From: a bacterium
GTDB lineage: Bacteria; JAJRZV01
DNA: 11,774 nt
Direction of reading: 5' to 3'
NCBI GenBank assembly: GCA_024275095.1
Contig: JAJRZV010000077.1
Location: forward strand, 1-11,774
Part shown: piece after piece, positions 2,254 through 11,774 of the stretch
How positions within the stretch are numbered: position 1 is the first letter of the stretch
Layout of the letters: the number at the start of each line of letters is the position of its first letter
Translations under genes and position numbers: made by a program
Notes under the pieces: generated by a model
The model's input: the letters and a program-made list of their open reading frames with translations, nothing else
Databases searched by the model: none
Told to the model about the DNA's origin: nothing

Positions 2254-2633
2254 GGCCCCTCCGCTATAGCTACAACGATACAGATATTATCCTCGTGAGT
2301 AATGGAAATCAAAATTCTTTGCACCCCTCCCCTCTCAGCCGCCTCTCGCATGGCCCCATGAAGTACCACCTGTGGCGACCCTCCCCTGCCGCGCAATATT
2401 TCCACCTCCCGCCACCTGATGCCCGTATTCACGTAAGCTCCCAGGGCCTTGTACACGGCCTCTTTGGCGGCAAAGCGACCGGCCAGATGCTGAACCACCC
2501 TGCGCCTGGAAGTACAGTACTCCACCTCAGCCGGAGTAAAAACCCGTGAGAGGAAACGCTGGCCAAAACGCTCAAGGGTTCTTTCAATACGATCTATTCG
2601 CATCACATCCACACCCATTCCCTTCACCACCAT
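2250..2633 (-). CDS. acpS: Holo-[acyl-carrier-protein] synthase AcpS
   Basis: AcpS transfers 4'-phosphopantetheine from coenzyme A to the conserved serine of apo-ACP, activating it for fatty acid synthesis in the cytoplasm. The 127-residue product has the family length and motifs: KGMGVDVMRIDRIE at 4-17, with Mg-binding Asp9, RFAAKEAVYKALG at 53-65, with Glu58 at the same position as in the E. coli enzyme, and the C-terminal SITHE segment at 110-114. I chose the ATG at 2633 rather than the in-frame TTG one codon upstream. The ATG forms a TGATG junction with the stop of the sugar-phosphate transferase gene, and a purine-rich AGGGGG lies seven bases upstream. The start MVVKGMGVD also fits the family N-terminus. 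The gene overlaps nnr by four bases. acpS next to nnr is a common arrangement in many bacteria. Confidence 0.94.
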   Translation of the reverse strand: MVVKGMGVDVMRIDRIERTLERFGQRFLSRVFTPAEVEYCTSRRRVVQHLAGRFAAKEAVYKALGAYVNTGIRWREVEILRGRGGSPQVVLHGAMREAAERGGVQRILISITHEDNICIVVAIAEGP

Positions 2634-4036
2634 CAAAAAGCCCCCTTCCTCTTGAGTACAGCCGGAATGGTCTTGAGAAGAATGACAAGGTCAAAAAGTA
2701 AACTGCGGTTTTTGATGTAATAGAAGTCATACTCCAGGTTTTCATGCAAAGGAATGTCCTTGCGGCCGAGTATCTGCCACAGACCGGTTATCCCTGGCAC
2801 GGCATTGAGCCTGAGTTTCTGCCATTCATTATATTTTTCAACAATAAAAGGCATTTCCGGCCGCGGTCCCACCAGTGACATTTCTCCTTTAAGCACGTTG
2901 ATAAGCTGAGGAAGTTCATCAAGTGAAGTGCGCCTGAGAAACTGCCCCACGCGTGTGACCCGAGGGTCTCTTGAGGTTCTGGGAGCCTCTTCATACGGGG
3001 ACGTATCTGTACGCATCGTTCTGAATTTATACATTCTAAATCGTCTGCCCTTGTAACCCACTCTTTCGTGAACAAAAAATACAGGGCCTGGAGAATCCAG
3101 CTTGATAGCCACTGCAATCACGATCCATAACGGTAAAGTTACTACCAGCAACACCAGTGCGCTCACGAAGTCCATTATCCTTTTGGATACCGTATAAAAG
3201 CGGCTGACGTGCCCTGTACCCAGATTGAAAATGGGAAATTCCTCGAGCACATCCACTTTAAGCTCCCGCGAGAGCACTTCAAAAACATTGGAAATCACAC
3301 GAAAGCTCACATCCCTGTCAGAGACAGAACTGATGAGGTGAAGGATCATATCCTGCGGCATGGAAGGCACCGCAATAATAACTTCGTCAAGTTCGTATTC
3401 GTCAATAATGCGACCAAGGTCATCCAGTGTGCCCAGAACAGGTACGTTACTGATTTTTTCTCCCACATTTTCGTGATCGGTTTCCACAAAGCCCACCACC
3501 TCGTATCCTATTTCAGGGTGGTCTGAAATTTTTTGCAAAGCCCGTATGCCTGTGGATGATGTGCCGACTATAATACATCGCACCCTGCCCAGACCTTTCC
3601 TCATCAGGCTCGTCTCCGCTTTCCTTACGGCCATCCTCACGACGGTATAACCCAGAAGGTTCAGCAAAAAGTTAAAAATGACCACAGAACGGGCTATGCT
3701 CAACTCCTTCACCAGGAATGCCATGGTGCCTATGATAAAGAGACCGAGCAGGGCACTCTTAATAACAGCCTGGGCGTCTTCAAGTCCACTGGCTCCTCTC
3801 TTGCGCCTGTAAAGTCCGAAATACGCGTTGGCGACCAGGCACAGCAAAACCACAACGGGAAGCACGTGCAGGTAAGATGCGATCGGGTTAAGCGGGTACC
3901 CAAAAACTCCCGAGAGCCACTGGCGCAGGTAGTATGCACCTATCCACGAGCATCCGATAACACATGCATCCAGCACAGCGAGAATCGCCCTGTAACCCCT
4001 GCGCTTTTTGAACAATCTATCAATAAATCGAATCAA
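2633..4036 (-). CDS. Polyprenyl-phosphate sugar-1-phosphate transferase (WbaP/WcaJ-type initiating enzyme)
   Basis: Enzymes of this family start exopolysaccharide or O-antigen repeat units by moving a hexose-1-phosphate from a nucleotide sugar to undecaprenyl phosphate on the inner face of the cytoplasmic membrane. The 467-residue protein has the large-family layout: about four membrane segments between residues 17 and 135, a cytosolic Rossmann-like domain starting near RCIIVGTSSTG (153-163), a fifth hydrophobic segment near 290-312 and the C-terminal catalytic domain. The catalytic domain shows KLDSPGPVFF (312-321), KFRTM (337-341), SLDELPQLINVLKGEMS with the Asp-Glu pair 373-374, VGPRPE (389-394) and PGITGLWQ (414-421). 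The start is TTG at 4036, supported by GAGGG six bases upstream and by the absence of ATG nearby. That gives a 17-base overlap with the ligase-like gene. The sugar specificity (glucose, galactose or an amino sugar) cannot be read from sequence. Confidence 0.92.
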   Translation of the reverse strand: MIRFIDRLFKKRRGYRAILAVLDACVIGCSWIGAYYLRQWLSGVFGYPLNPIASYLHVLPVVVLLCLVANAYFGLYRRKRGASGLEDAQAVIKSALLGLFIIGTMAFLVKELSIARSVVIFNFLLNLLGYTVVRMAVRKAETSLMRKGLGRVRCIIVGTSSTGIRALQKISDHPEIGYEVVGFVETDHENVGEKISNVPVLGTLDDLGRIIDEYELDEVIIAVPSMPQDMILHLISSVSDRDVSFRVISNVFEVLSRELKVDVLEEFPIFNLGTGHVSRFYTVSKRIMDFVSALVLLVVTLPLWIVIAVAIKLDSPGPVFFVHERVGYKGRRFRMYKFRTMRTDTSPYEEAPRTSRDPRVTRVGQFLRRTSLDELPQLINVLKGEMSLVGPRPEMPFIVEKYNEWQKLRLNAVPGITGLWQILGRKDIPLHENLEYDFYYIKNRSLLFDLVILLKTIPAVLKRKGAF

Positions 4037-5831
4037 CGATATCCCTCAATTCAGGATCTTTTTCAAGGTACCGTTTTTGTATCGGCCTCTTCTGCAGATA
4101 CTTCTCCAGGAGGCTTCGAGCCTCTTCCTGCCTTCCTGTTTTCACAAAAAGGCGAGCGAGTTCAGGAACAGCCAGAGGATCGTAAGGATAGAGTTTCACA
4201 AACATTCGAAGGTCGTTTTCATAAGCCACAAAATCGTTCAACTGCCTTTCACACCGTGCCCTGATGTAGAGTGCGGGACCGTGATGAGGGTAAAGCTTCA
4301 GCACTTGTGACATTATCAACCGGGCTTTGTCCCATCCTTCATACCGGTAAACTGCACTTCCCAAAGCGAATGTGGTACGGTAAGACAGCGGGTTAACCCG
4401 CCACGCCCGAAAAAGTCCCGGCAATTCACCGGCTCTCCTGAGGGCCCTGATCTTCAATGCCTCGTCCATCTCCAGTCTTGAAACAATAGCACGCCATCCT
4501 GCTGTCGCTGAAAATCCCAATCCAATTACTGCACAGGTATAAAAGACGAAAAGAACCCGGGATGGTTTAAGCACTACAGTTTTTCCTTCTTTAATTTGAG
4601 CCATCAGGGGTGCAGCAAAAATCAGCATTGCCGGGAAAAACCGGGGATTGCTTCCGCCCTGTCCAGCTATTGCAAGAAGCATCGCTCCAGCGAAAAACAT
4701 TCCATCGGCCACGCGTTTCTCCTCAAGGGCCGCCCTTAATGCCACCACAAAAGGGATCAAAAAAAGCAAAAGCCCGGGAAACCCTGTCTCACCTCCCAGA
4801 AGGGCTGTCAAAGAGAGTGGCCGCACTTCATGGTTGGCAATCCCGACCTGCCTGTTCAACCATCGGAGTTCATCACTCTGATAAAGGGTCAGGCGTGATG
4901 AAAAAAGCCCTCTGCCGCTTCCAAATACCGGATCGTGAAAAAGCACAGCGTACTGCTGTTCCGTCAGCACTTTATCTCTAACAGAATGCACGAGTTTTTC
5001 AGCTGAAAGAGAATTCTCTCCTGGCAGCACCCTTTCAGAAAACCACCAGCCTCCCACCATTCCTGCCACAAGCAGGACGCTCAACACCCCCCGCAGGCTT
5101 CTTTCTCCCGGGGGAGCAAATCCAAAAGAGACTATCAAAGCCGTACCAGCTACAAGAAGCGGAAAGAGTGCTCTTGCGAACCCTGCCGCGAACCCCGTCA
5201 TTAAAAGGACCACTGCAACAACACCACGATAGCCTGAGGAACCTCTTCCTATCTGTGATTGCAAAAACAAAACAAAAAGAACAAAAAGAAGGGCAACCTC
5301 CTTCCATGTACCATATGGAGCCATCACATCCTTCATATTTACAACCTGCTCAAACCATACGCCCTCCATCTGTATATACACGGCCAGAGCGGTGATCACC
5401 AACGTGCCGAAAACAAAAGCGATCAGTGTTTTTTCGACAGGAAAGACTCTATCTTTCAAGCACATAACCCCTACAACGACGAGCACCACAAGTACATCCA
5501 CACTACTGTACACAAATGCCATGCCGGGACTTTCAGCAAACAGCGCGCTCAAGAGAGCCCACAGAGCAAAGCCCAGCAGGTAAAGTCCTGGATTCGAAAC
5601 ATTGACCTCGCAGCGTTTCAGCAGTGACAGGCTTACAAGAAAAAGCAAGAGTGAAAATCCTGCCGCTATAGCCACAGGGGAAACATCAGGATTTAATTTG
5701 AATACAGCATCATGCAATTTGGTTATTTTGACGAGTTCGGGGTAAAAGGCATTGAAAGCCACCAGCAGTGCAACGCAAGCAACAAAACCCTTAATCGCAC
5801 CCTCTGCCACACCCAGTATTTTTTCTTTCAC
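4020..5831 (-). CDS. O-antigen ligase/polymerase-like membrane protein with C-terminal TPR region
   Basis: This is a polytopic inner-membrane protein of the O-antigen ligase (WaaL/Wzy_C) type, likely to join or polymerise undecaprenyl-linked glycans on the periplasmic side. Residue numbers here count from the upstream GTG at 5834. The first 450 residues hold about ten to twelve hydrophobic segments. A large loop (about 265-340) contains FHDPVFGSGRGLF, followed by NHEVRPLSLTALLGGETGFPG (334-354), which resembles the family's loop-and-helix signature. From about 455 the protein is soluble and helical. The segments around 485-515, 516-550 and 552-585 look like TPR repeats, ending in EARSLLEKYLQKRP. 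The start is one of two adjacent GTG codons. I prefer 5831 because AGGAGG then has a five-base spacer and the overlap with the glycosyltransferase gene is the usual four bases. Ligase, polymerase and protein glycan transferase (PglL-like) roles cannot be separated from sequence alone. Confidence 0.8.
   Translation of the reverse strand: MKEKILGVAEGAIKGFVACVALLVAFNAFYPELVKITKLHDAVFKLNPDVSPVAIAAGFSLLLFLVSLSLLKRCEVNVSNPGLYLLGFALWALLSALFAESPGMAFVYSSVDVLVVLVVVGVMCLKDRVFPVEKTLIAFVFGTLVITALAVYIQMEGVWFEQVVNMKDVMAPYGTWKEVALLFVLFVLFLQSQIGRGSSGYRGVVAVVLLMTGFAAGFARALFPLLVAGTALIVSFGFAPPGERSLRGVLSVLLVAGMVGGWWFSERVLPGENSLSAEKLVHSVRDKVLTEQQYAVLFHDPVFGSGRGLFSSRLTLYQSDELRWLNRQVGIANHEVRPLSLTALLGGETGFPGLLLFLIPFVVALRAALEEKRVADGMFFAGAMLLAIAGQGGSNPRFFPAMLIFAAPLMAQIKEGKTVVLKPSRVLFVFYTCAVIGLGFSATAGWRAIVSRLEMDEALKIRALRRAGELPGLFRAWRVNPLSYRTTFALGSAVYRYEGWDKARLIMSQVLKLYPHHGPALYIRARCERQLNDFVAYENDLRMFVKLYPYDPLAVPELARLFVKTGRQEEARSLLEKYLQKRPIQKRYLEKDPELRDIVDSIY
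4043..4047 (-). promoter_or_regulatory. Ribosome-binding site supporting a TTG start
   Basis: On the minus strand GAGGG lies six bases before the TTG codon at 4034-4036. The first downstream alternative, another TTG at 4013-4015, has no comparable site. This is the main reason for placing the sugar-phosphate transferase start at 4036, inside the end of the upstream gene. Confidence 0.45.
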
Positions 5832-6994
5832 CACGTCCTCCTCTCATCTGCTGTTCTGATAAGTTCGGAGAATAACCCTTCATACTCATCAACAACCGCT
5901 TCCCAGGAGTAGAATTTTTCGGCTCGCTCCCGAGCGGCCCTTTTCAACTTCTCTCTTAACCCTTCATCGACAATTACCTTCCTGAGGCAATCCCCAAGGG
6001 ACCCGGGGGCCTCTTTCAAGCGAAAAATCAACCCGGCATCTCCCAGCACTTCCTTATTGGCCGGGGTATCGCTGGCAATCACACAATTCCCGAAACCCAT
6101 TTGCTCCACCAGCACAGGATGGGTACCTCCCACTCCCGAAGCAAGCACAAACACTGTTGCATAATGACTCAGCTGTCTGTAAGCACGACCAAACTGATAA
6201 CCTGTGAAAACAATACGAGGGTCCTCTCCTGCAATTTCTCTGAGATGCCTCTTGTAATCTTCTGCATAAGGGGCGTCTCCCACAATAACAAGCTTGATGT
6301 CCTGGGCTTCTTTCCCAAGCAGCCGAAAAGCCTGAATCAATATATGCGCGTTATTTTCTGGCACCATCCTTCCCACGAACAGAACGTATTTATCAGGTTC
6401 GAGCCCAAACTTCTCCAGTACATCAGTCCCTGTGTCGGTGGTAAAATCTGTACCGTAAGGGATGAAAACCGTTTCAAAGTTGTAATACCGCCGGTAATAC
6501 TCCTGCACAGCCCTGGCATCAGCAATCACAACATCAGGAGTAATGGTGGCAATACGCTCTGATGTGCGAAGGAACCATCGCGCGAATGTTCCCCACTTTT
6601 CCCTCTGCCAGTCGGCTCCGTCAACATTAAGGACCACCTTCATTCCCCTGATACGTGGAATCCACGCAAGTATGCTGTTACCCACTCCACAGATGTACAC
6701 AATATCATGTTTGTGAAAAAGAAGGTGAATTACGGAAAGAAATGTGTGCACAATCGTGTCTGTCGCTTTTGCAGGTATTGTCGGAAGTTTTACAAGTTTC
6801 ATGCCCTTGTAGGTATCCGCTTTGTATTTCACATGGGTACTGCGGTTGTATACGGTAACAGTCCAGCCTCTTTGCGCCAAACGCGAACCCGCTTCTTCCA
6901 CGAACGTCTCGAAACCACTGTAAGAAGCAGGCACCCCTCTCGTGCCGATAAACGCGATGCTGGCCTTCTTATCACTCACTGAACCGGTAGGCAT
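5828..6994 (-). CDS. GT4-family glycosyltransferase with DUF1972-type N-terminus
   Basis: This is a cytoplasmic or membrane-associated GT-B glycosyltransferase of 388 residues that likely adds a sugar from a nucleotide donor to a lipid-linked glycan. The acceptor-side domain (about 11-185) opens with ASIAFIGTRGVPASYSGFET, the DUF1972 hallmark found in rhamnosyltransferase-like enzymes. It continues with DIVYICGVGNS (97-107), NVDGADWQREKW (123-134) and VFIPYG (176-181). The donor domain follows: YVLFVGRMVPENN (203-215), KLVIVGDAP (234-242), IVFTGY (261-266) and GVGGTHPVLVEQMGFG (287-302), which is the nucleotide-sugar site. The ATG at 6994 lies 23 bases inside the end of the RNase gene and has only a weak site upstream. 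A GTG at 6979 is a possible alternative start. Together with the next two genes it forms a polysaccharide cassette. The sugar and linkage are unknown. Confidence 0.9.
   Translation of the reverse strand: MPTGSVSDKKASIAFIGTRGVPASYSGFETFVEEAGSRLAQRGWTVTVYNRSTHVKYKADTYKGMKLVKLPTIPAKATDTIVHTFLSVIHLLFHKHDIVYICGVGNSILAWIPRIRGMKVVLNVDGADWQREKWGTFARWFLRTSERIATITPDVVIADARAVQEYYRRYYNFETVFIPYGTDFTTDTGTDVLEKFGLEPDKYVLFVGRMVPENNAHILIQAFRLLGKEAQDIKLVIVGDAPYAEDYKRHLREIAGEDPRIVFTGYQFGRAYRQLSHYATVFVLASGVGGTHPVLVEQMGFGNCVIASDTPANKEVLGDAGLIFRLKEAPGSLGDCLRKVIVDEGLREKLKRAARERAEKFYSWEAVVDEYEGLFSELIRTADERRTW
5837..5842 (-). promoter_or_regulatory. Strong ribosome-binding site deciding between two GTG starts
   Basis: On the minus strand AGGAGG lies two bases before the GTG at 5834 and five bases before the GTG at 5831. 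The longer spacer is more normal, and it gives a GTGA-type four-base overlap with the preceding stop, so 5831 is the better start of the ligase-like gene. Confidence 0.55.
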
Positions 6995-8417
6995 CTATTT
7001 CCGAACCAGATTTCTCCATCACGATTACATCTGTGTCGAATTCTTTACCAAGTTCGAGAAGTTCCTTTCCATGGTGTGAAAGAAGATAATCTTTAACTTC
7101 AGGATGAACAGTAATTTTTATTTTCTCGCGTTTCTTAGATTTCAAGGTCCACAAGAGTTCCGCAAGTATTCGCGAAGCCACATACCTCGGAGATATCACA
7201 CTGCCGGTGCCATGACATTGCGGGCACTCGAATGTCATTTCATGTTTAAGCGAGCGCTCCGTCTTTCTGCGAGTCATTTCAACAATGCCAAGTTCTGAAA
7301 ATTTCCTGAAAGTTATTTTTGCCGTATCCTTGAGAGACTCCTCTTTGATGATATTGAGAATCTTGCGCTGGTGAGCCTCCTTCTTCATATTGAGGAAATC
7401 AATAATAATCAGCCCGGAGATATTTCTAAGCCTCAATACCCGCATTATCTCTTTTGCAGCTTCTGTATTGATACGAAAAGCCGTGGATTCGAAATCCGCA
7501 TCACCCGTATGGCTTCCTGTATTCACATCAATTCCCGTGAACGCCTCCATTTCCTCGATAATGAGAAAACCTCCAGACGGCAACTTAATACGCCTGTGCA
7601 ACACCTGATGAAGTTCGTCTTCCACTCTCTCGTGTTGAAAAAGCGGCTTGTCGCCTGAGTAAAGTTCCACGCTTACTTCGGCAGATGGCCAGAAGTGAAG
7701 CTCACGAGCCAGCACATCAAGGGCTTCTTGAGAATCCACCACAATCCGCTTGGTGGAGGGTTTCACGTATTCCCTGATGACGCGCTCCACCAGGCGCCTC
7801 TCCCTTCTCAGCAACGCAGGTGCATTTGTGTTGACCGCTTTATGAAGGAGTTCGTCCCATTCGTGTGAGATGCTTTCTGCCTCATGTCGGATCTCATCTT
7901 CCGTGGCAAAGGCCGCGGATGTGCGAATAATGAAAGCTCCTGGAAGTTCCTCCATGAGTGAACTCACCAGTGCAACAAGCTGTTCTCTCACGGACTTATC
8001 GGTAATTTTTGAGGAAATGCGGACATCATTTTCATAGGGGAGGTAAACGAGATACCTTCCCGGAATGGAAATCTTCATTGAGAGTTTCGGTCCCTTGTCA
8101 TTCTCACCTTCTCTTATTACTTGCACGATAATTTCCTGGCCTTCCTGGAGAACGTTCTTTATGCGCCTTTCACCGGACTCCCGCACTACATCGTCAATAT
8201 ACAGGTAACCTGGACGCTCTGCTCCGATATTGACAAATGCCGCCTGAAGCCCGGGCAGTACATTGAGCACCTTTCCCTTGAAAATGTCTCCAAACCTGGG
8301 GCCTTTCACCATCCGTTCAAACTCGTAATCCACGAGACGGTCCCCCTCTTTGACAGCCACACGCGTCCACCAGGGTGTATGATTGACGAGAATTTTCTCT
8401 TCTGGTGTTGCTGACAT
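6972..8417 (-). CDS. rng: Ribonuclease E/G family endoribonuclease (RNase G-like)
   Basis: RNase E/G enzymes cut single-stranded, AU-rich RNA, mature rRNA 5' ends and start mRNA decay. At 481 residues this is the short RNase G form, without the long C-terminal degradosome scaffold of RNase E. An S1-like RNA-binding domain sits near 40-118 (GDIFKGKVLNVLPGLQAAFVNIG). The DNase I-like catalytic domain contains FTGIDVNTG with Asp297 and IIIDFLNM with Asp340. They are 43 residues apart, the same spacing as Asp303 and Asp346 of E. coli RNase E. The zinc-link CPQCHGTG has Cys398 and Cys401, also at the expected distance. The ATG at 8417 is the first start after an in-frame stop. AGAGG lies only two bases before it, a rather short spacing. 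It follows the radical SAM gene by 116 bases. A radical SAM gene of this type beside rng is a recurring pairing in my knowledge of bacterial genomes. Confidence 0.95.
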   Translation of the reverse strand: MSATPEEKILVNHTPWWTRVAVKEGDRLVDYEFERMVKGPRFGDIFKGKVLNVLPGLQAAFVNIGAERPGYLYIDDVVRESGERRIKNVLQEGQEIIVQVIREGENDKGPKLSMKISIPGRYLVYLPYENDVRISSKITDKSVREQLVALVSSLMEELPGAFIIRTSAAFATEDEIRHEAESISHEWDELLHKAVNTNAPALLRRERRLVERVIREYVKPSTKRIVVDSQEALDVLARELHFWPSAEVSVELYSGDKPLFQHERVEDELHQVLHRRIKLPSGGFLIIEEMEAFTGIDVNTGSHTGDADFESTAFRINTEAAKEIMRVLRLRNISGLIIIDFLNMKKEAHQRKILNIIKEESLKDTAKITFRKFSELGIVEMTRRKTERSLKHEMTFECPQCHGTGSVISPRYVASRILAELLWTLKSKKREKIKITVHPEVKDYLLSHHGKELLELGKEFDTDVIVMEKSGSEIDAYRFSE

Positions 8418-8533: not shown

Positions 8534-10969
8534 TCATTTACTATCTTTTATTCTATCCTGATGCGACTCCATCTCATGAGCTGTTTTTACCACGCGTACC
8601 CTTTTCAGTATATCAGCTTTGACACCGTTAATTTCAAGTACTTTAAAAATATTAATATTTTTGTTCTCATCTGCTTCCACCTGTATCACAAGCTGATGTT
8701 CCTTTTTGTTCACCCTTTTCAACCGCATGCGTACGCCGTTTTTGATGCGCTCCAAGGCACTCGCTCCTGCCTTAAAATCCTCCTCATTCTCCCAGTACAG
8801 AAGATATTCCGCTCCTGAAGTATTCTCAAAAATTGATGGCTCATCTTTCCTGAGTTCTCTGGCCTCCTCCACCTGCAAGCCGGTACCATTCAAAACGCTA
8901 TTTAAAACACCGCTGAGTTCTTCGCACCGAACACTCCCCAAAATCACTGCATCCATGTACTCCTCACACGACTCCACGCCCACAGGTAGAGCCACACCAG
9001 CAGAAACCACCGGGCGAGGGTTGTGAGCACCACGGTATTTCAGGCGTACACCCGCGCGTCTGAATGCCCTCACAAAGGCATTCAACATTTCAGGCGCACT
9101 CATCAATGCAGCAGGCATAAAGCGCGAATAGCGTATTCTAACCCTTGTTTCTGAAGTGCTTTCAGGCACATAAACTCCTTTTTCTCGAAGCACACCTTCT
9201 GGTCTTGCACGACGAACACGTACCGCTCCGCCGCATATCCCACAGGCATGACATTCCGCTGCAGAACAATCCAGTCCCCCCTGCTCATCCAGCGCACGTT
9301 TGTAGTCCTTCTTCAGGAAGTCAACATTCACACCCGTATCAACAAAACTCCACGGCAACTCATCACTAACTTTACCCCCGGGATAGGAACATTCTCCGTA
9401 TTTCTTGAGCACATCAATCCACATTTCTCGATGGAGAAACTCCGTCCATGTCTCCAGGTAGGCACCCCTGTCCACTGCTTCACGCACTGCCTTTGCAGCA
9501 TCCCAACCGGCCCTGGCCAGAAAATTTTCTATCCGTGAAGATAGCAAATCATGCCATTTTACACGTACAGGCGAATTTTTGAACTCCTTTTTCAGGACCC
9601 CCAGGTGCTTACGCATCTCCTCGAAATCTGCCCGGTGCCACTGGAACGGTGTGTGCGGTTTCGGAACAAAAAAACTCACCGACGTATCAATTTGAACCTT
9701 TCTCCGGACTCTCCGCGCCTCTCTGTAAATTCTTCGAACAAGTCGGGCAATGGCAACCACATCTTCCTCATCCTCGCGAGGCAGACCCACCATGAAATAG
9801 AGCTTTACATGTTGCCAGCCGTGACGGAAGGCCATTACCGCCTGTTCAACAACTTCATCGTCAGTGTACCATTTGTTAATCACTTTTCTGATCCTTTCGG
9901 TCCCTCCCTCTGGTGCGATGGTCATTCCACGTTTACCCAGATCCGCGATCATTCGCACCACATCCTCACTCAAAGTACTGATACGGATGGAAGGCAGTGT
10001 GAGTGAAACGGTGTGTTCCTGGCAAAAGGGATAAAGTCGCCTGATTACATCCTCCAGAGCGCTGTAATCTCCGGTACTCAACGATAGCAGTGAAATTTCC
10101 TGAAATCCTGTGTTTTTGTAAATTTCCTTCGCCAGGGCTTCAACTGTTCCAGGTTCTCTTTCTCTCAGGGGTCGGTATATAAACGTGGCAAGACAAAACC
10201 GACATCCTCTCGGACAGCCCCGTGCCACCTCAACCATCACACGTTCGTGCAGTACAGACGTGAGGGGAACCATCTGGGTTTTGGGGTGAAAATTCTTCTC
10301 CAGATCCGCCACAACGCGCCTTTTCACCTTAACTGACAATGATGTCAATCCTTTCCCACGACCATGAACGGCTGGTACGTACATGCCTTCAATACCGGCC
10401 AGTGCCTCCAGCAACTCGCGCCTGCTTCCTCCGTACCGTTTCTGCTGGAGCATGATCTCGTTGATCTCCGCAACTGCCTCTTCGGCCTCTCCTGCAAAAA
10501 CAGCGTCAAAAAAGACATGGAGAGGTGCGGGGTTGGAGGTCACCGGTCCACCAGCAATAAAAAGTGGTGTGTTCTCGTTCCCCTTACACTGGGATCTCAT
10601 CATGTCCATAAGTTTCACTGCCGTGGGAATGTGCAGTTCTGTGGAAAGGGAGAAACCTATCACGTCAAAAGCCGAGGGCGTCTCCTGCCGTTCCAGACTC
10701 ACAAGTTTCTCCTCGCCAGAAAGTATGAGTTCCAGATAATCTCTCCAGGGTGCAAACAGCCTGTCACATACAGCGTCGGGAAGAGTATTTATAAGGTGGT
10801 AAAGGAGAGAAAATCCAAAGCTTGACATTCCAACCTCATAAACGTCGGGAAACACCAGCAGCCACCTGACCCCTTTCCGCCATTTCTTTTCACTGAGAGC
10901 AGGGCGACCGATCTCACTGTCCAGGTAACGCAGAGGTTTCCTGATGCTTCTCCACTTCCAGGCCTGCAT
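8534..10969 (-). CDS. Radical SAM protein (TIGR03960-like) fused to a DUF2344/TIGR03936-like domain
   Basis: The reaction of this family is not known to me. It belongs with B12-binding-type radical SAM proteins often encoded beside RNase G. In the 811 residues, the first 200 or so form a Rossmann-like B12-binding-type region (LLVFPDVYEVGMSSFGFSLL at 37-56, FIAGGPVTSNP at 137-147). A classical radical SAM core follows with RGCPRGCRFC, cluster cysteines 252, 256 and 259, then TIAPEGGTERIRK (350-362) and VKLYFMVGLP (388-397). A second cysteine group, C568-x4-C573-x2-C576-x2-C579, may bind another metal centre. From about 607 a DUF2344-type domain appears: RVRIRYSRF, RAFRRAGVRLKY (634-645) and NPRPVVSAGVALPVGVES (650-667). 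Many genomes encode these two parts as separate genes; here they are one chain. The ATG at 10969 is the first start after an in-frame stop six bases upstream, with no strong ribosome site. A role in rRNA or tRNA modification is only a guess from context. Confidence 0.88.
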   Translation of the reverse strand: MQAWKWRSIRKPLRYLDSEIGRPALSEKKWRKGVRWLLVFPDVYEVGMSSFGFSLLYHLINTLPDAVCDRLFAPWRDYLELILSGEEKLVSLERQETPSAFDVIGFSLSTELHIPTAVKLMDMMRSQCKGNENTPLFIAGGPVTSNPAPLHVFFDAVFAGEAEEAVAEINEIMLQQKRYGGSRRELLEALAGIEGMYVPAVHGRGKGLTSLSVKVKRRVVADLEKNFHPKTQMVPLTSVLHERVMVEVARGCPRGCRFCLATFIYRPLREREPGTVEALAKEIYKNTGFQEISLLSLSTGDYSALEDVIRRLYPFCQEHTVSLTLPSIRISTLSEDVVRMIADLGKRGMTIAPEGGTERIRKVINKWYTDDEVVEQAVMAFRHGWQHVKLYFMVGLPREDEEDVVAIARLVRRIYREARRVRRKVQIDTSVSFFVPKPHTPFQWHRADFEEMRKHLGVLKKEFKNSPVRVKWHDLLSSRIENFLARAGWDAAKAVREAVDRGAYLETWTEFLHREMWIDVLKKYGECSYPGGKVSDELPWSFVDTGVNVDFLKKDYKRALDEQGGLDCSAAECHACGICGGAVRVRRARPEGVLREKGVYVPESTSETRVRIRYSRFMPAALMSAPEMLNAFVRAFRRAGVRLKYRGAHNPRPVVSAGVALPVGVESCEEYMDAVILGSVRCEELSGVLNSVLNGTGLQVEEARELRKDEPSIFENTSGAEYLLYWENEEDFKAGASALERIKNGVRMRLKRVNKKEHQLVIQVEADENKNINIFKVLEINGVKADILKRVRVVKTAHEMESHQDRIKDSK

Positions 10970-11016: not shown

Positions 11017-11568
11017 TTATAGTAAACCGGCTGATTTCATTATCTCTTTAAGACGGGGATCAATTTGTGCATATTCTTTTAAAATCTTCTCGATTCTCTC
11101 TTCTCTCTCCTCAAGCTCTCTGTTTTTCCTGACCGCAGGAGCAAGTGCCGTACGCCTGTCCCACAGCACAAATCCAATGAGAGCAAAAATACCTGCAAAT
11201 GTAATTCCAAAACCCCAGAGCATGAAATTCTTGAGCTCAGCCACGTCCTGTTTCAGGTCGTTAATCTGTTGCTGGGTATAGGATTTCAGGTCATGTATCT
11301 GCTGCTGGGTGGAGGACTTCAGATCGGTGATCTGCTGTTGTGTAGAGGATTTCAGGTCCTTAATCTGCTGCTGGGTAGAGGACTTCAGATCGTTGATCTG
11401 CTGCTGGGTGGAAGACTTCAGATCGTTGATCTGCTGCTGCAGAAACTTCTGGCCTTCTTCCAGTCTGATAATCCTTTCCCGGTCCTCAAGTGTAAAAGAA
11501 ACTGCTTTTCCGTATGCTGTCAAAGACACTATTACCACATATCCTGCCATCATTATTTGAACTTTCAT
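11017..11568 (-). CDS. Membrane-anchored hendecad-repeat coiled-coil protein, unknown function
   Basis: I recognise the architecture but no characterised function. Residues 1-23 form a hydrophobic N-terminal segment that could be a signal peptide or anchor. LEDRERIIRLEEGQKFL (27-43) leads into six uninterrupted 11-residue repeats at 44-109 of the form QQQINDLKSST, varying mainly at position 5 (N, N, K, T, H, N). Hydrophobic Ile and Leu at positions 4 and 7, with Thr at 11, give 3-4-4 spacing, which defines a hendecad coiled coil, nearly straight or slightly right-handed. A transmembrane helix (about 116-136, NFMLWGFGITFAGIFALIGF) follows. It ends in WDRRTALAPAVRKN and a charged tail ELEEREERIEKILKEY with the C-terminus KSAGLL. 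The likely topology is coil outside the cytoplasmic membrane and tail inside, judging by the arginines after the helix. The ATG at 11568 has a weak GGGA site. Radical SAM starts 47 bases downstream. Confidence 0.8.
   Translation of the reverse strand: MKVQIMMAGYVVIVSLTAYGKAVSFTLEDRERIIRLEEGQKFLQQQINDLKSSTQQQINDLKSSTQQQIKDLKSSTQQQITDLKSSTQQQIHDLKSYTQQQINDLKQDVAELKNFMLWGFGITFAGIFALIGFVLWDRRTALAPAVRKNRELEEREERIEKILKEYAQIDPRLKEIMKSAGLL
11242..11439 (-). repeat. Six in-frame 33-bp tandem repeats
   Basis: Six head-to-tail units of 33 bases, with no spacer, encode the 11-residue repeats of the coiled-coil protein. Each unit begins with three glutamine codons (mostly CAG) followed by an Ile codon, a variable codon, then Asp-Leu-Lys. 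Units 1 and 2 differ at very few bases. Units 3 to 5 carry further changes, many of them synonymous (ATC/ATT/ATA, GAT/GAC, AAG/AAA). Unit 6 keeps the first eight residues and then diverges to Gln-Asp-Val. The pattern suggests internal duplication followed by selection on the protein. Copy-number change would preserve the frame and alter only coil length. Confidence 0.95.
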
Positions 11569-11600
11569 ATTCCCATTCTACTGAATACGGACTTATCTGG

Positions 11601-11774
11601 TCAAACACCCTCTTCCGAATACGAAATACTGGCCAGGATTTTATGCACTGCGTTTTTTAACGCATTTTCATGGCCCCCAAAAAAGTGGTCTGCTCCTTCA
11701 ATCACTTCCAGGACTTTTCTTTTATGTACCTTTCCCATTATTTCCTTCAGGATTTCTTCTGAGCAAAAAACATC
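11601..11774 (-). CDS. Alpha/beta hydrolase, C-terminal end (runs off the right edge)
   Basis: The last 57 codons of a gene enter from the right edge and end in TGA at 11601-11603. The reading frame begins DVFCSEEILKEIMGK and continues with RKVLEVIEGADHFFGGHENA (residues 19-38 of the fragment). GADHFFGG is the segment that places the catalytic histidine (His30 of the fragment) in small alpha/beta hydrolases of the dienelactone hydrolase/COG2945 kind. The chain then closes with a final helix, NAVHKILASI, as expected for the fold. The nucleophile serine and the acid residue are outside the window or not identifiable, so substrate and activity are unknown. The coiled-coil gene starts 32 bases after the stop with no terminator between them, so co-transcription is plausible. 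A 16-base hairpin inside this coding part is treated as incidental. Confidence 0.72.
   Translation of the reverse strand, partial: DVFCSEEILKEIMGKVHKRKVLEVIEGADHFFGGHENALKNAVHKILASISYSEEGV

Follow-up and report, generated by a model that had tools for sequence, protein, structure and literature searches.

Judged by the relatives gathered from public genomes, the small membrane protein encoded at one end of the window (the whole stretch of DNA analyzed, 11,774 nucleotides) is a member of a family of its own, for which neither Pfam nor NCBIfam holds an accepted model. The features that define this family, namely a conserved motif at the membrane exit, the tail that follows it and a variable coil, are all found in the window protein. 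Its architecture, that is, the order of its parts with a stalk, a transmembrane (TM) helix and a tail, is well supported by sequence comparison. Its cellular role is uncertain: we read it as a transmembrane coiled coil that self-associates and serves as a scaffold or adaptor, its outer reach being adjustable and its cytoplasmic tail a common docking element, and we consider this reading plausible, if slightly short of probable.

Architecture and repeat array

In the open reading frame (ORF) of the window, a signal peptide is followed by a short capped head, coil repeats with 3-4-4 spacing, a single TM helix and a tail of 48 residues (Table 1); complete-ORF relatives generally have the same order, with a coil of variable length, and the head of most of them is of the type FTQEDRDRLIRLE or ISDREIIERLTRLE. 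An N-terminal hydrophobic segment had been pointed out in the earlier note; it is present, but it reads as a cleavable signal peptide (that of relatives ends in AxA-type motifs), which places the stalk outside the membrane. The mean charge is +2.3 in the 12 residues after the TM helix and -0.3 before it (136 members), and this excess places the tail in the cytoplasm. From these sequence features we infer a topology with the stalk outside and the tail inside.

Table 1. Features of the repeat gene and its immediate neighbors, in window coordinates.
Feature	Position	Strand	Basis or remark
Gene, 183-aa stalked single-pass membrane protein	11017..11568	(-)	ORF and translation; single copy in its genome
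Signal peptide, residues 1-22 (boundary approximate)	11503..11568	(-)	Sequence reading; hydrophobic helix 2-18 in model; AxA-type ends in relatives
Capped head VSFTLEDRERIIRLEEGQKFL, residues 23-43; relatives' conserved form FTQEDRDRLIRLEEGQKAL	11440..11502	(-)	Alignment of relatives
Six 11-residue coil repeats, residues 44-109, 33-bp DNA period	11242..11439	(-)	Tandem Repeats Finder, unit comparison
Transmembrane helix NFMLWGFGITFAGIFALIGFVL, residues 114-135	11164..11229	(-)	Relatives' alignment, model, charge distribution
Conserved cytoplasmic tail WDRRTALAPAVRKNRELEEREERIEKILKEYAQIDPRLKEIMKSAGLL, residues 136-183	11020..11163	(-)	Alignment of relatives, model
Same-strand gene upstream, last 57 aa in view; by eye alone, alpha/beta-hydrolase-like	11604..11774	(-)	Stop 11601-11603
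Downstream gene, TIGR03960/TIGR03936 radical SAM protein	8534..10969	(-)	47 bp past the stop codon of the repeat gene

In the AlphaFold2 prediction (mean pLDDT 89; pTM 0.46), residues 27-169 form one helix, after which comes a short final helix, and the model is weakest in the tail (pLDDT 69-81); made for one chain, it has no bearing on the oligomer state. The repeats are helical throughout in this model. Together with the alignment of relatives, the helical prediction supports the arrangement proposed earlier, in which a stalk, a TM helix, a conserved juxtamembrane motif and a helical tail follow each other. At the membrane exit, the residues W, R, R, A and P are invariant among the 40 aligned members, and the WDRRTALAPA motif that had been singled out in the window protein is conserved across relatives. 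It should be noted that WDRRTALA was one of the six seed patterns of the first DNA search, so that the invariance at the exit is partly a matter of ascertainment; WDRR is also kept in a second subfamily, which was found by profile. The tail is usually 48 residues long counted from the W of WDRR, and other lengths occur at helix-turn steps.

Tandem Repeats Finder detects the array in the DNA as 5.7 copies of 33 bp with 82% matches. The encoded units are QQQINDLKSST (units 1 and 2), QQQIKDLKSST, QQQITDLKSST, QQQIHDLKSYT and QQQINDLKQDV. The lag-11 self-identities of the protein number 57, against a mean of 11.5 and a maximum of 24 in 10,000 shuffles. Thus, the array is real, although its description as six perfect-register hendecads was slightly generous: the I-L-T 3-4-4 spacing is intact in five full units, and the sixth ends in QDV. 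Among the units, pS is 0.66 and pN 0.13 per site (pN/pS 0.20), and this large excess of synonymous differences indicates that the repeat pattern has been kept by selection on the protein and is not merely the result of fresh DNA duplication. Opposite the repeat gene, the plus strand has a long open frame (11269-11772) that is a shadow of the repeats and is unsupported as a gene.

Stalk length, helical phase and expansion of the family

From the head to the exit of the TM helix, the stalk measures 40-102 residues across the family, and it varies even among close relatives and among copies in the same genome. Its lengths are quantized at 3.6 residues (R = 0.70 for 69 distinct stalks, all from members whose head matched the search motif), while periods of 3, 4, 5, 7 and 11 gave no signal. 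Taking one stalk per genome, R was 0.72 (31 genomes, p ~1e-7), and with one stalk per cluster it was 0.68 (25 clusters under 60% tail identity, p ~1e-5), these p-values being approximate because the members are related; the control length, from start codon to head, gave R = 0.21. The combination of variable length and kept 3.6-residue phase points to a continuous helix that is phase-locked to the membrane helix. Such a pattern is to be expected of a coiled coil that passes without interruption into its membrane helix. With its 98 residues, the stalk of the window protein deviates from the mean phase of the family by about 0.2 turn; its hendecad construction is a plausible reason. In the hendecad subgroup, repeats with conserved flanks number one in three relatives (L053, L007 and L012), two in L023 and six in the window protein, so the expectation that a homolog search with the TM-plus-tail part would uncover a conserved tail with a variable repeat number was borne out.

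That search of public genomes yielded at least 57 loci, and about 150 distinct members were gathered; the lineages represented include Nitrospirota, Nitrospinota, Planctomycetota (anammox), Binatia, Deltaproteobacteria and Tectomicrobia, among others. In a profile search, 15 of 386 domain-wide genomes (~4%) carried the family, and the profile of the second subfamily found largely the same carriers among the 386; the TM-tail profiles of the two subfamilies are clearly homologous (99.3% probability in a profile comparison). Copy number runs from 1 to 18 per carrier genome (37 carrier genomes), the window's genome having one. The window protein gives only coil-level matches below cut-off in Pfam, NCBIfam, PHROGs and PADLOC, and no common Pfam or NCBIfam model spans the 40 aligned members. 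No relative was found in phage, plasmid and viral-contig collections, the tail profile matched generic coils only among solved structures, and a literature search retrieved no paper on the family. Foldseek gave no match for the predicted structure, as is expected for one long helix.

For 54 members the nearest relative lies in the same genome, against a mean of 4.3 after shuffling, which argues for lineage-specific expansion, and tandem family copies are common. Same-genome duplicates have a median pN/pS of 0.23, with values of ~0.06-0.1 in the closest pairs, indicating that they are under purifying selection. A few decayed copies with in-frame stops stand beside intact copies in the same genomes (e.g. 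G408:C1, G397:C131, G409:C66 and G406:C104). These sequence patterns suggest a useful gene family whose members are born and lost over time. In one genome (L038:1486-2556, 3149-3829 and 7544-8254), the family protein has an extra N-terminal TM-plus-tail module, fused in frame before its normal signal region, which looks like a duplication of the tail module.

Genomic neighborhood and possible roles

The stop codon of the upstream gene lies 32 bp before the start codon of the repeat gene, and a Pfam search with its 57-residue fragment gave no match. Elsewhere in the window (2633-6994, minus strand) there are surface polysaccharide genes, encoding an exopolysaccharide sugar-phosphate transferase, a membrane protein with a TPR end that is O-antigen ligase-like by eye, and a glycosyltransferase; they stand between housekeeping genes (acpS, nnrD and tsaE; RNase G).

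Whether homologs share neighbors, a question raised in the earlier note, was checked over about 130 family loci: no common neighbor was found, and the neighbors differ from locus to locus. Complex I genes directly adjoin a family gene in four independent cases (L006/L056, L053, L166 and L179). In L166 the adjoining gene is nuoL, and in L179 (3024-8520) two tandem family genes lie between nuoF-like and nuoG-like genes, with gaps of 50, 12 and 35 bp; three further loci have nuoF/nuoG-like genes within a few kb. A general link with complex I was rejected, since a rough estimate does not put the number of such cases clearly above chance expectation. In a Tectomicrobia region (L092:3693-11973), three family copies with near-identical tails and different stalks alternate with four Uma2 genes; the region, which looks like a segmental amplification, also has genes reading as HepT/MNT-like and VapC-like. 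A general link with Uma2 was likewise rejected: Uma2 genes accompany the family in this region and in one other genome, are mostly non-adjacent elsewhere, and were absent when searched for in the window's own genome. Some family loci have neighbors resembling, by eye, PIN, MNT/HEPN and DUF104 genes, and in L019-L021 the family copies hold the same place between related species. In L099 (1498-2512), a coil protein with a DUF1640-like ATKAD motif ends 1 bp ahead of the family gene, which is followed by a DUF5618/HEPN-like gene (by eye); a DUF1640-like coil neighbor is clear in this one locus.

If the protein is a scaffold or adaptor, its N terminus would be secreted and its signal peptide removed, and the short capped head would begin a single helix that runs outside the membrane as a self-associating coiled-coil stalk, passes unbroken through the inner membrane, which the protein would cross once, and exits as the conserved cytoplasmic helical tail. 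The stalk would form an oligomer, presumably a homo-oligomer, and set its reach; the membrane-exit motif and the tail would dock a common putative partner, and one gene copy would be distinguished from another chiefly by its reach and its head. Sequence statistics support the order of parts, the conservation of the tail, the purifying selection on repeats and duplicates, and the phase-keeping length steps. The neighbors differ across loci, so that the docking partner was not found, and this counts against the scaffold or adaptor reading, as do the merely generic coil matches of the tail among solved structures, the low model confidence in the tail and the phase offset of the window protein's stalk. 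It is possible to go further and imagine a general-purpose envelope-to-cytoplasm adaptor, with a conserved inner docking end and stalks of freely evolving reach, of which up to 18 copies would present that end at varying heights or pair it with other partners at the head, but we regard this extension as doubtful.

The main rival is a minimal transmembrane signal coupler, in which a cell-wall, ligand or partner event at the head would twist or shift a rigid helix bundle and thereby alter what the tail binds in the cytoplasm. The helical phase kept between head and membrane helix, the invariant membrane-exit motif beside a proline and the many diverged copies would suit such a device. However, the head has only ~20 residues, Pfam and NCBIfam searches revealed no catalytic or known output domain in the tail, and any continuous coiled coil keeps phase without signaling, and we consider a coupler unlikely. 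The long coil outside the membrane might also be a fixed-length periplasmic spacer or ruler between two membranes, in the style of Omp-alpha or Lpp; the carriers identified by name would allow this, all belonging to lineages generally regarded as two-membraned. We give this explanation hardly any credence, because stalk length differs even between close relatives and between copies of one genome, and neither a lipobox nor an outer-membrane anchor was seen in the head. Coiled-coil spacers are recognized by their conserved length (PMC5082667), and the range of 40-102 residues therefore argues against a spacer of fixed length. The plain spacer role suggested in the earlier note thus finds no support.

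The distribution of the gene could also be that of an itinerant accessory gene, spread like toxin-antitoxin or Uma2 genes and perhaps encoding a small membrane protein that acts as an effector in conflict or in defense against phages. Its patchy occurrence in many copies, the single copies inserted among unrelated genes, the decayed copies, the PIN, MNT/HEPN and DUF104-like neighbors and the interleaving with Uma2 genes in one genome are consistent with this. It seems quite improbable, however, given that Uma2 is missing from the window's genome and mostly non-adjacent elsewhere, that PADLOC matches are coil-level only, that phage, plasmid and viral contigs yielded no relative, and that the L019-L021 copies keep their place. 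Finally, kinship with CCDC90/DUF1640 proteins (MCUR1 family) would make the protein a factor that helps to assemble respiratory or transport complexes. The complex I genes adjoining in four cases, a similar hendecad stalk in 6h9l and a PF07798 match of 24.7 bits speak for it; we hold it to be very improbable, as that score is below the gathering cut-off of 33.5 bits, only 1 of 40 family members matches PF07798 even weakly, the protein lacks the head of that family, which for its part has no equivalent of the extra 48-residue tail, and by rough estimate the cases next to complex I genes do not clearly exceed chance.

None of the curated libraries searched has a model dedicated to the family, though up to 18 copies occur in several environmental bacteria and duplicates are under purifying selection. 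A stalk whose length is free while its helical phase is strictly maintained offers a clear and testable sign of a helix that has to remain mechanically continuous with its membrane helix, and this separates coupling from spacing. If the partner of the invariant tail is found, a function would be gained for many hypothetical proteins at once.

Comparison with known coiled-coil systems

The CCDC90-like/DUF1640 proteins (PF07798; MCUR1, CCDC90B) share with the window protein a T-x-x-x-I-x-x-L hendecad stalk joined to one membrane helix, and at the sequence level this stalk resembles that of the solved structure PDB 6h9l (three chains in the entry). Unlike them, the window protein lacks the DUF1640 head and carries a signal peptide, and its TM helix is followed by a conserved tail. 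The PF07798 match begins at profile position 68, so that the first 67 of the 175 positions, which correspond to the N-terminal head, are not covered. DUF1640 stalks start with a beta-layer neck motif, [aliphatic]-A-T-K-[polar]-[DE] (PMC4786415), which on direct reading is absent from the window protein. With the cut-off missed, head and neck absent and a foreign tail, filing the protein as CCDC90/DUF1640 was rejected.

A coil running into a membrane helix is also found in XhlA (PF10779), a phage lysis-cassette protein. The match spans the coil and the membrane helix only, and XhlA has neither the signal peptide nor the tail of the family. The window protein scores 18.4 bits against a cut-off of 34.7, and one relative, L045, just passes at 35.2. 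No XhlA-style lysis-cassette context was found, the neighbors being cellular and the phage and viral-contig collections yielding no relatives. Filing as XhlA was rejected, since the window protein is under the cut-off and its tail is foreign to XhlA.

Omp-alpha and other periplasmic coiled-coil spacers resemble the family in having a long extracytoplasmic coil fixed to a membrane; whereas their length is constant, the family stalk varies freely in helical steps, with no outer-membrane or wall anchor seen. Division proteins of the FtsL/FtsB/DivIC type have a membrane helix continuous with a periplasmic coil, as does the family. No sequence relation with them was found, and the family differs in having its coil N-terminal to the TM helix (the opposite orientation), a signal peptide and variable length. 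The protein probably works like other membrane-anchored coiled-coil stalks.
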